Assembly (NCBI GenBank): GCA_016744795.1
Contig: JADGDR010000002.1
Location: 62,001 to 126,000 of the forward strand
Direction of reading: 5' to 3'
Origin: Sulfurospirillum sp.
GTDB taxonomy: Bacteria; Campylobacterota; Campylobacteria; Campylobacterales; Sulfurospirillaceae
Length of the DNA: 64,000 bases
A program made the position numbers and the translations under genes. The notes under the pieces were generated by a model. That model worked only from the letters and a program-made list of their open reading frames with translations. It did no database searches and had not been told where the DNA came from. Below, one piece after another: positions 13,945-16,030 of this stretch. The stretch's first letter is position 1, and each line of letters starts with the position of its first letter.

Positions 13945-15195
13945 TTCATTAGCACTTCTTAGTATATCTATACCATATTTGCTTCTAAGTTCTTGATTTT
14001 TTTTCATCAATAAGTTTAGTTTAATATCCCTTTGTATATCTAAAACAGAGGGATTTAATTTTTCTTTTTTTATAAAATTTGTCAAAGATAGAGATAGTTT
14101 TATAACACTACTGTTAGAATTATTATCTAATTTTTCAAATATTTCTATGATAGTTTCTATAAGAAATTGTTCATTCAAAAGTCTATTAAATGTTATCTGT
14201 TTTCTTTTTGAATTGTATTCATATTGTATAGATAAACTAAGTGTTGTAGGAACTAATTCTAAGCGTGATACCATAAATATAAGATGACGATTGAGTATAT
14301 AAAATCTTCTTTTTAACTCATTTCTATCTCTTATGGCATCAAAAGTTCTTGAAATACCTACAGATTTTCTGCCTACTCTTTCAATAACAGATTCATCGTC
14401 ACATCCACATACTCTATCGTATATTGTTTTTCCATTATTCCCCCATGAGTACAGAAGTGTTTTAGATTCTTGGACATCACCTAGAGTAAACTTTTTGTAT
14501 TTATGTAGTTTTGCTTGATAAGCTCTGCCAATGCCTGGAAATTTTTCTATGGGTATATCTTTTATAAACTCAGCCACATTATCTATTTTTTTAACACCAA
14601 AAGGTTTTGCATACTCAGTAGCGAGTTTTGAAGTCCATTTTGAATGAGCAATACCAATAGAACAAGGAAGTTTAAATTTTTTATATATATCATTTTTGAG
14701 GTTTTCTAAAAAAGAGTAGATTTTATTATCTTCTATCCAACCACTTAAATCTCCGAAAAATTCATCTATACTAAATTGCTCTATAGTAGGTATATGTGTT
14801 TGCATATACTCCCTAAGTTGTTTCGATAATTCGTGATATAAAACATGATTTGGCTTTATAACTATAAGGTCTTTACATCTGTTTTTAGCTTCAGCTATGC
14901 TCATGCCAGTTTTTATTCCATAACTTCTTGCTTCATAGCTTGATGTTGTAACTATACCGCGTATTTTATTCTCATCTTTAAAGTAATCAGGTAAATTTGA
15001 TTGGTTTTTGTCTACAAATACAGCTGATACAAAAGCTCCACTGTTTTGAAAAATTATATCTCTATTTAATCTCTCTTTTGAGAATATATAAGGATCACTT
15101 CTTCCTCCTATGGCTACAGGTTTTCCATTTAGCGTATGGTTATTGATTCTTTCTGCTGAAACGTAAAAAGCATCTAAGTCAAGATGAAAGTTCAT
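13936..15195 (-). CDS. Y-family DNA polymerase (DinB/UmuC type) with palm insertion
   Basis: 419 residues. Catalytic acids are visible: D6 in HLDLDAFYVSAE, and D144/E145 in FSIDEFF. VTTSSYEARSYGIKTGMSI is the fingers signature, and FPGIGRAYQAKL is the helix-hairpin-helix. Between VAIGGR (residue 32) and GIVTTSSYEAR (residue 80) there is an insertion of about 45 residues (FSKERLN to FKDENKIR) absent from E. coli Pol IV. The gene diverges from an S24 repressor gene 175 bases away, pointing to damage-inducible translesion synthesis. Confidence 0.85.
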   Translation of the reverse strand: MNFHLDLDAFYVSAERINNHTLNGKPVAIGGRSDPYIFSKERLNRDIIFQNSGAFVSAVFVDKNQSNLPDYFKDENKIRGIVTTSSYEARSYGIKTGMSIAEAKNRCKDLIVIKPNHVLYHELSKQLREYMQTHIPTIEQFSIDEFFGDLSGWIEDNKIYSFLENLKNDIYKKFKLPCSIGIAHSKWTSKLATEYAKPFGVKKIDNVAEFIKDIPIEKFPGIGRAYQAKLHKYKKFTLGDVQESKTLLYSWGNNGKTIYDRVCGCDDESVIERVGRKSVGISRTFDAIRDRNELKRRFYILNRHLIFMVSRLELVPTTLSLSIQYEYNSKRKQITFNRLLNEQFLIETIIEIFEKLDNNSNSSVIKLSLSLTNFIKKEKLNPSVLDIQRDIKLNLLMKKNQELRSKYGIDILRSANELL

Positions 15196-15299
15196 TAAAA
15201 AAGTAAATTGCTAACTTTTAACATAACTTGTTCAAATTTCTGTAAATATGTTTCGATTTGTTGCATTTGAAATCCTTTTTTATATTTTATTTTTAAAAG

Positions 15300-15328
15300 T
15301 ATACAAAAAATATAAATTATGGTACAAT
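15300..15328 (+). promoter_or_regulatory. Candidate promoter of the S24 repressor gene
   Basis: TATACA (15300-15305) and TACAAT (15323-15328) are 17 bases apart, a fair sigma-70 match placing the start site near 15335, inside the palindrome described next. Confidence 0.45.
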
Positions 15329-15332
15329 TATA

Positions 15333-15357
15333 TTACAAAATGAAATATTTTTTGTAA
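15333..15357. promoter_or_regulatory. Candidate operator TTACAAAA-N9-TTTTGTAA
   Basis: A perfect inverted repeat with 8-base arms and a 9-base spacer, just downstream of the TACAAT element and 14 bases before the repressor ATG. A related half-site, ATACAAAA, lies at 15301. Position and symmetry fit autoregulation by the S24 repressor, and the same site could control the divergent polymerase gene. The binding partner is inferred. Confidence 0.55.
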
Positions 15358-15370
15358 AAAGGATTTTAAA

Positions 15371-16030
15371 ATGCCAGATTTAAAAGAAATTTTGAATAGA
15401 ATTAAAGATATACTTTCAAATGAAATTAAGGATAGAAAGATTTTTGACAAAGATGTTGCCCAAGCACTTAAAATAAATCAAGTTACTTTAGCAACAATGA
15501 AAAGTAGAAAAAAAATACCTTATAAAGAGATATTGGAGTTTTGTGCTCTAAGAAAGATTTCTATAAATTGGCTTATGTTTAATCAAATGGTACAAAGCAT
15601 AGCAAATGAGAGTGAGAAATTTGAGAAAATTCATTATTTTAAGGATATTTACGTAAGTGCTGGTGGTGGGGCATTGAATTATGATGAACAGAGTGAATTT
15701 TTAAGCTTAGATGAAGAGATAGTAAATCATCTTGGTGGAAAAGGTGCTATTAAAAACATTCATGCATTAAATGTTTTGGGAGATTCTATGGAACCTACTC
15801 TAAATGACGGTGATATAGTTTTCATGAACAGAGACAGTACTAACCCAAACAGAAATGGTGTCTATATTGTATCGACTCTAGTTGGTATTTTTGTAAAAAG
15901 ATTACAGTTAAAGTCAGATGGAACAGTAGCTTTGGTTTCAGATAATGAAGCATATTCAGATGAAATTGTAAATGCAGAAGATATAAAAGTATTAGGGAAA
16001 GTTGTTGGAGCTATGTCCAACAACTTTTAG
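15371..16030 (+). CDS. LexA/CI-like S24 repressor
   Basis: 219 residues. The N-terminal 70 residues form a CI-type helix-turn-helix (DKDVAQALKINQVTLATMKS, then ILEFCALRKISINWLM). The C-terminal S24 domain has the nucleophile in LGDSMEPTLNDGDIV (S139) and the general base lysine in GIFVKRLQL (K176). VSAGGGAL near residue 96 offers an Ala-Gly bond at the position where such repressors self-cleave. Campylobacterota generally lack classical LexA, so this CI-type protein paired with a Y-family polymerase is a plausible substitute. Confidence 0.85.
   Translation: MPDLKEILNRIKDILSNEIKDRKIFDKDVAQALKINQVTLATMKSRKKIPYKEILEFCALRKISINWLMFNQMVQSIANESEKFEKIHYFKDIYVSAGGGALNYDEQSEFLSLDEEIVNHLGGKGAIKNIHALNVLGDSMEPTLNDGDIVFMNRDSTNPNRNGVYIVSTLVGIFVKRLQLKSDGTVALVSDNEAYSDEIVNAEDIKVLGKVVGAMSNNF
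16001..16028 (+). terminator. Intrinsic terminator inside the 3' end of the S24 repressor gene
   Basis: GTTGTTGGA (16001-16009) pairs perfectly with TCCAACAAC (16016-16024) around a 6-base loop and is followed by TTTT. The stem encodes the last residues of the protein (VVGAMSNN). Confidence 0.7.

Follow-up and report, generated by a model that had tools for sequence, protein, structure and literature searches.

The Sulfurospirillum sp. locus analysed here very probably encodes an analogue of LexA, a domesticated phage repressor of the CI type that would govern an SOS regulon of Campylobacterota, including the polymerase encoded opposite to it. This reading draws on the domains and catalytic residues of the repressor, a conserved promoter box, the genes that carry this box, and the association of the box with the presence of the repressor, all taken from sequence. 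Epsilonproteobacteria, including Campylobacter and Helicobacter, are reported to be without a LexA orthologue and possibly without a typical SOS response (PMC2390758, PMC5665897), and in C. jejuni recA is not induced under fluoroquinolone (PMC2390758). S24 proteins stand in for LexA in Bacteroidetes, Streptococcaceae, Acinetobacter (there derived from UmuD) and Francisella (PMC8565304, PMC11332147, PMC13148647). Our searches of the open-access literature turned up no paper that describes an SOS regulon for Campylobacterota. The locus lies in a stretch of 64,000 nucleotides, here called the window, whose numbering is used in Table 1.

Table 1. Features of the repressor-polymerase locus, in window positions.
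Feature	Position	Strand	Evidence
Y-family DNA polymerase, 419 aa	13936..15195	-	Pfam IMS (145 bits), IMS_HHH and IMS_C; SIDE motif
Polymerase insertion, about residues 33-77 relative to E. coli DinB	14965..15099	-	Alignment; present in aligned relatives
Microprotein ORF MQQIETYLQKFEQVMLKVSNLLF, 23 aa	15195..15266	-	AAGGA ribosome-binding site; stop overlaps polymerase ATG (TAATG)
Predicted -10, TATACT-like, of the microprotein-polymerase transcript	15298..15303	-	GTATAC kept in L002 and congener L003; predicted from position
Predicted repressor -10, TACAAT, with TATGG before it at 15318	15323..15328	+	TATGnTAYAAT pattern
Predicted operator ATATTACAAAATGAAATAT, one-mismatch copy of the box	15330..15348	.	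Conserved beside repressor -10; same box at repair genes of relatives
First-flagged dyad, overlapping the predicted operator, probably by coincidence	15333..15357	.	Exact match; shuffles; conservation
S24/CI-type repressor, 219 aa	15371..16030	+	Pfam domains, orthologues, structure model
Ala97-Gly98 codons, predicted self-cleavage site	15659..15664	+	S96-A97-G98 invariant in alignments
Catalytic Ser139 codon	15785..15787	+	Invariant in alignments
Catalytic Lys176 codon	15896..15898	+	Invariant in alignments

A preliminary description of this DNA had recognised a CI/S24 repressor with Ser139, Lys176 and an Ala-Gly cleavage site, facing a Y-family polymerase, and both identifications held. Pfam and a structure model divide the repressor into an N-terminal helical HTH and a C-terminal self-cleaving serine protease domain. 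Peptidase_S24 scores 70.9 bits against a cut-off of 23.3, and Phage_CI_repr matches the HTH with 21.5 bits (E 3e-4), just below its cut-off of 22. S96-A97-G98, Ser139 and Lys176 are unchanged throughout alignments of 34 and 29 sequences, and the protein thus combines the S24 domain, Ser/Lys dyad and Ala-Gly site that define self-cleaving S24 repressors. Orthologues are present in most relatives. The model (mean pLDDT 79.6, pTM 0.54, the domain arrangement therefore being unsure) displays five helices before residue 70, an S24 fold and no N-terminal strands, and its structural matches are phage 186 CI, LexA and lambda CI, the last two also in structures solved on RecA filaments. The canonical LexA equivalog in NCBIfam, TIGR00498, was not reached (34.6 bits, over the S24 part only, against a cut-off of 110.95), and the winged HTH of LexA was not seen, Pfam and the model pointing to a probable CI-type HTH instead. 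We infer DNA binding, RecA-stimulated cleavage and damage induction for this repressor.

Directly 3' of the repressor -10, in register across congeners, stands a 19-bp palindromic box, ATATTTCA-N3-TGAAATAT. The pattern TATGnTAYAAT followed at once by this box is found in most orthologues of Sulfurospirillaceae, f7 and f10 (families are numbered f, genera g). Scored in its general form, ATATnnCA-N3-TGnnATAT at 11/12 or better, the box lies upstream of 47 of 70 orthologous repressors vs 0.4% of shuffles. Within four genera of Sulfurospirillaceae it precedes 29 of 30 repressors, that is, all 29 in g1-g3, with the single g4 sequence under the threshold. Upstream of f16 and f19 repressors we found TTAACA-N3-TGTTAA (9/10, vs 0.2% of shuffles). 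The recognition-helix segment reads NQxxFATMKxR in most families and TPExLSxLKKR in f16/f19, so that operator and recognition helix change alongside each other, a covariation expected of a repressor and its operator. Loci with the f16/f19-type box and the different helix are L043, L046, L057, L036, L040 and L053. No recognised box was found upstream of repressors of f4 and of genus g5 (f1g5). The latter, a genus of the same family (L069, L071), carries beside the polymerase a more distant repressor that groups with f4/f2 in the tree; replacement by transfer is possible. We tentatively take f9 to be Arcobacteraceae, f16 Nautiliaceae, f19 Nitratiruptoraceae, f6 Sulfurovaceae, and f11/f14 to be of the Campylobacter and Helicobacter type.

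In the mechanism we propose, a repressor dimer would bind the box over its own transcription start and beside the divergent promoter, shutting off both itself and the microprotein-polymerase operon. The box covers the predicted repressor start (~15335); its distance to the predicted divergent start, upstream of which it lies, is ~48 bp, and a single dimer could therefore block both. Similar boxes in promoters elsewhere would bring repair genes under the same control, with recA a putative target in relatives. Upon DNA damage, RecA-ssDNA filaments would prompt the Ser139/Lys176 dyad to cut the repressor at Ala97-Gly98, and the cleaved repressor would fall off the DNA, inducing the regulon.

The genes that carry the box elsewhere are consistent with such a regulon. 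Among 150 genomes of relatives, 28 contain the exact box and none contains its reversed-pattern control. Outside repressor promoters, exact boxes stand ~48-160 bp upstream of the downstream genes: recA, a radical-SAM DNA repair gene, rmuC, an endonuclease/exonuclease family gene, integron integrases, a small membrane protein gene and a GGDEF gene. The radical-SAM protein is rSAM_link_UDG (TIGR03916; 559 bits, cut-off 343.5). In 18 genomes belonging to f9, f17 and f6, a variant box gave 65 sites vs 5 controls, the 65 taking in some sites inside genes, for example a recurrent ATATACCATCTTGC[AC]ATAT in f9, which were not counted as targets. Variant boxes precede recA, recG (618.6 bits, cut-off 555), radA (627.5, cut-off 403), a RecQ-family helicase (520.5, cut-off 219.8), a YifB/ComM-like ATPase (399.4, cut-off 362), DNA methyltransferases and genes that we named by eye as RadC-like (no match in NCBIfam), RhuM-like and KilA-N-like. 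With 65 sites against 5 and repair genes identified behind them, the box is upstream of several DNA-repair genes beyond chance. Where the same Y-family polymerase is encoded apart from the repressor, the box lies 48-58 bp upstream of it in all three genomes parsed (G049, G051, G084). Boxes also stand upstream of RhuM/Fic-like, phage-antirepressor-like and DNA methyltransferase genes (L323, L353, L354, L355, L075, L334, L351, L352), and the sequences suggest that mobile or defence genes may be tied to the damage response. The preliminary description had a self-cleaving repressor controlling translesion synthesis through a new operator. The core of this proposal gains comparative evidence; the operator it named is probably the wrong one, and its scope was too narrow, since the box is found at recA and other repair genes in several families and many repressors have no adjoining polymerase.

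Presence of a box at recA (at least 11/12, within 300 bp) follows presence of the repressor. Such a box was found in 33 of the 71 genomes sampled that encode the repressor vs 0 of the 19 that do not (Fisher p 7.5e-5, an indicative value because relatedness overstates independence). By group, the counts were 8/8 in f7, 12/12 in genus g3, 5/6 in f9 and 4/6 in f17. Genus g3, f7 and f9, and in part f17, f6, g1 and g2, have an operator common to the repressor's own promoter and recA. In g3 the box sits between recA and a divergent gene, closer to the latter. No recA box was found in the sampled genomes of f4, f10, f16, f18 and f19, nor in repressor-less genomes of f10 or in the repressor-less congener G003. 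Within the genus of the window, three congeners with the repressor could be tested and one has a recA box; our search of the assembly that contains the window (G000, rated 100% complete) found no recA, likely owing to a gap in the assembly or in the sequence searched. Hence the local regulon may be small.

These last observations bear on the alternative of a minimal circuit resembling HdiR or UmuDAb, in which the repressor would control only itself and the microprotein-polymerase operon and would not be a general SOS regulator in this organism. We regard this as unlikely, even though minimal circuits are documented for HdiR and UmuDAb (PMC8565304) and two of the three testable congeners have no recA box. 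The own genome has just two perfect copies of the variant ATATTNCANNNTGNAATAT (control 0), one at 15330-15348 and one upstream of a small zinc-finger-like gene. So low a count favours the minimal circuit; the second copy itself argues for a wider one, as a likely relative of the gene in f9 is also boxed. Furthermore, an integron integrase of the own genome (L145:2096-2998; TIGR02249, 378 bits, cut-off 265) is preceded by a box with two mismatches (1928-1946) at ~150-160 bp, the distance at which boxes precede integrases of congener G005 and of other relatives. A search of the own genome with two mismatches allowed gave 17 matches vs 12 controls and is too noisy to be used alone. Boxes in congeners likewise point beyond a minimal circuit, lying at recA, a GGDEF gene, a methyltransferase gene and integrases. 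The small zinc-finger-like protein is without a Pfam match; its gene (L076:1082-1447) is a candidate new damage-response gene, and the boxed f9 gene (L346:1523-1870) is probably its relative.

The polymerase carries its catalytic acidic motif, SIDE, at residue 142 and belongs to the IMS superfamily. It did not reach the NCBIfam equivalog cut-offs for DNA polymerase IV (DinB), scoring 190.8 vs 399 and 185.6 vs 256 bits. The insertion ascribed to it earlier is real when compared with DinB, but we rejected it as a special trait of this protein: all 25 relatives aligned have it, making it a trait of the subfamily. The polymerase is probably a member of the published 'epsilon-prot PolIV-like' group (representative Arcobacter nitrofigilis ADG92494.1; PMC6511836), Y-family polymerases of the same phylum whose regulation is not described in the available text of that paper. 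The polymerase is often encoded far from the repressor, many orthologues of which therefore stand without one. In Sulfurospirillum loci L009, L014 and L022, the DedA-like gene known from the window and the repressor are still neighbours, the polymerase between them is missing, and most genomes of this type have a more distant polymerase relative located elsewhere. As an addition to the LexA-like role, not a replacement for it, the cleaved C-terminal fragment could serve the polymerase as a partner in the manner of UmuD'. The C-terminal domain does match structures of UmuD and UmuD', and no separate UmuD gene lies beside the polymerase; the frequent distance between polymerase and repressor speaks against such a partnership, which we hold to be quite improbable.

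Between repressor and polymerase we found a microprotein ORF. Related ORFs of 23-34 residues, divergent from the repressor and ending in a short hydrophobic motif, are present in nearly all Sulfurospirillaceae of g1-g4, in genomes of f7, f10 and f17, and in some of f9, and the ORF is kept beside the repressor even where the polymerase is located elsewhere. Among 20 distinct sequences of genus g3, pN/pS is 0.20 and variation falls mostly at third positions, which makes it very likely that the ORF is a gene. As candidate roles we consider co-repression, by analogy with DdrR and UmuDAb, partnership with the polymerase, and inhibition induced by damage.

The operator named in the preliminary description was a perfect 25-base dyad over the start, TTACAAAA-N9-TTTTGTAA. 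The dyad exists, just 3' of the predicted -10 and over the predicted transcription start, leaving the start codon uncovered; its significance and its conservation did not withstand analysis. Perfect dyads with 8-bp arms and a spacing of 0-15 bp arise in 485 of 1000 (48.5%) dinucleotide shuffles of the 175-bp region between repressor and polymerase, a chance of ~0.49 per such region. Only 3 of 70 orthologous upstreams contain the dyad at 14/16 or better, and it is not conserved even inside the genus: the left arm recurs in congener L004, and the right arm (15350-15357) is missing in the nearest relatives and congeners. That the repressor binds this dyad is very unlikely. The dyad is perfect, overlaps the promoter-proximal leader and is unique in the 2.68-Mb genome, but uniqueness also leaves it without another exact copy elsewhere, and the box, centred 6 bp from the dyad centre, accounts for both the conservation and the target genes. 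We therefore rejected the dyad as operator on its chance rate and non-conservation; its overlap with the true, conserved site is probably fortuitous. A half-match, TACAAAA-N9-TATGGTA at ~15301-15324, was dropped as a second operator because it coincides with the -10 elements of both promoters.

The repressor has clear ties to phage. A PHROG phage repressor family matches it with E 7e-37, and its closest phage relatives, repressors of Campylobacter and Helicobacter prophages, share ~33% identity with it. That it is simply a prophage immunity repressor with no part in the host damage response is nevertheless scarcely credible, as we found no phage genes in the surroundings examined, the DedA-like chromosomal neighbour is kept in Sulfurospirillum without the polymerase, the tree clusters by lineage, and the box lies upstream of repair genes. 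In the tree, repressors mostly cluster with others of the same host family, in keeping with vertical inheritance; the backbone is weakly supported and phage sequences fall inside the tree, which leaves domestication in a single event unproven.

The LexA-like system described here appears new among the S24 substitutes for LexA that we found in the literature, and its kind is already known. LexA itself shares the S24 protease domain, the predicted RecA-stimulated self-cleavage and the role of master repressor, and differs in its winged HTH where Pfam and the model point to a probable CI-type HTH in the repressor. The non-canonical LexA of Bacteroidetes (Sanchez-Osuna et al. 2021, PMC8565304) likewise joins a CI-like N-terminal domain to S24, is of probable phage origin, and governs through lineage-specific palindromes a regulon with recA, error-prone polymerases and UDG-linked repair genes. 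Its motifs are CTAA-N5-TTAG and GGA-N5-TCC, in contrast to the box found here; moreover, these regulators are reported as exclusive to Bacteroidetes (PMC8565304), whereas the Campylobacterota family is known here from sequence. HdiR of Lactococcus/Streptococcus, as described in PMC8565304, is also a phage-derived S24 protein; in hosts that lack LexA it controls its own gene and that of a umuC-type polymerase, yet it belongs to another lineage and has a small regulon in most species. UmuDAb-DdrR of Acinetobacter (PMC11332147) resembles our system in lacking LexA and in having an S24 protein that represses error-prone polymerases, together with a small gene transcribed divergently, and differs in its descent from UmuD, its large atypical box and its DdrR, which is unique to Acinetobacter and likened here to the microprotein by position. 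FddR of Francisella (2026, PMC13148647) is a co-opted phage S24 repressor that, as part of the damage response, controls its own gene and others divergent from it, but its operator is GTG-N11-CAC and canonical SOS genes are not induced, whereas here recA and repair genes are boxed.

We give about even chances to a broader view, that much of Campylobacterota possesses an ancestral SOS built on a phage repressor and lost in Campylobacter- and Helicobacter-type lineages, with the microprotein a conserved new component acting, for example, as DdrR-like co-repressor, polymerase partner or damage-induced growth inhibitor. If the LexA-like reading is true, absence of SOS would hold for the pathogens and not for much of the phylum, and one more phage repressor would have come to fill the role of LexA, with a conserved microprotein revealed beside it. 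It would also link DNA damage to the integron integrase and translesion synthesis in environmental Campylobacterota, and provide a concrete regulator, operator and target list testable in non-pathogenic Sulfurospirillum.
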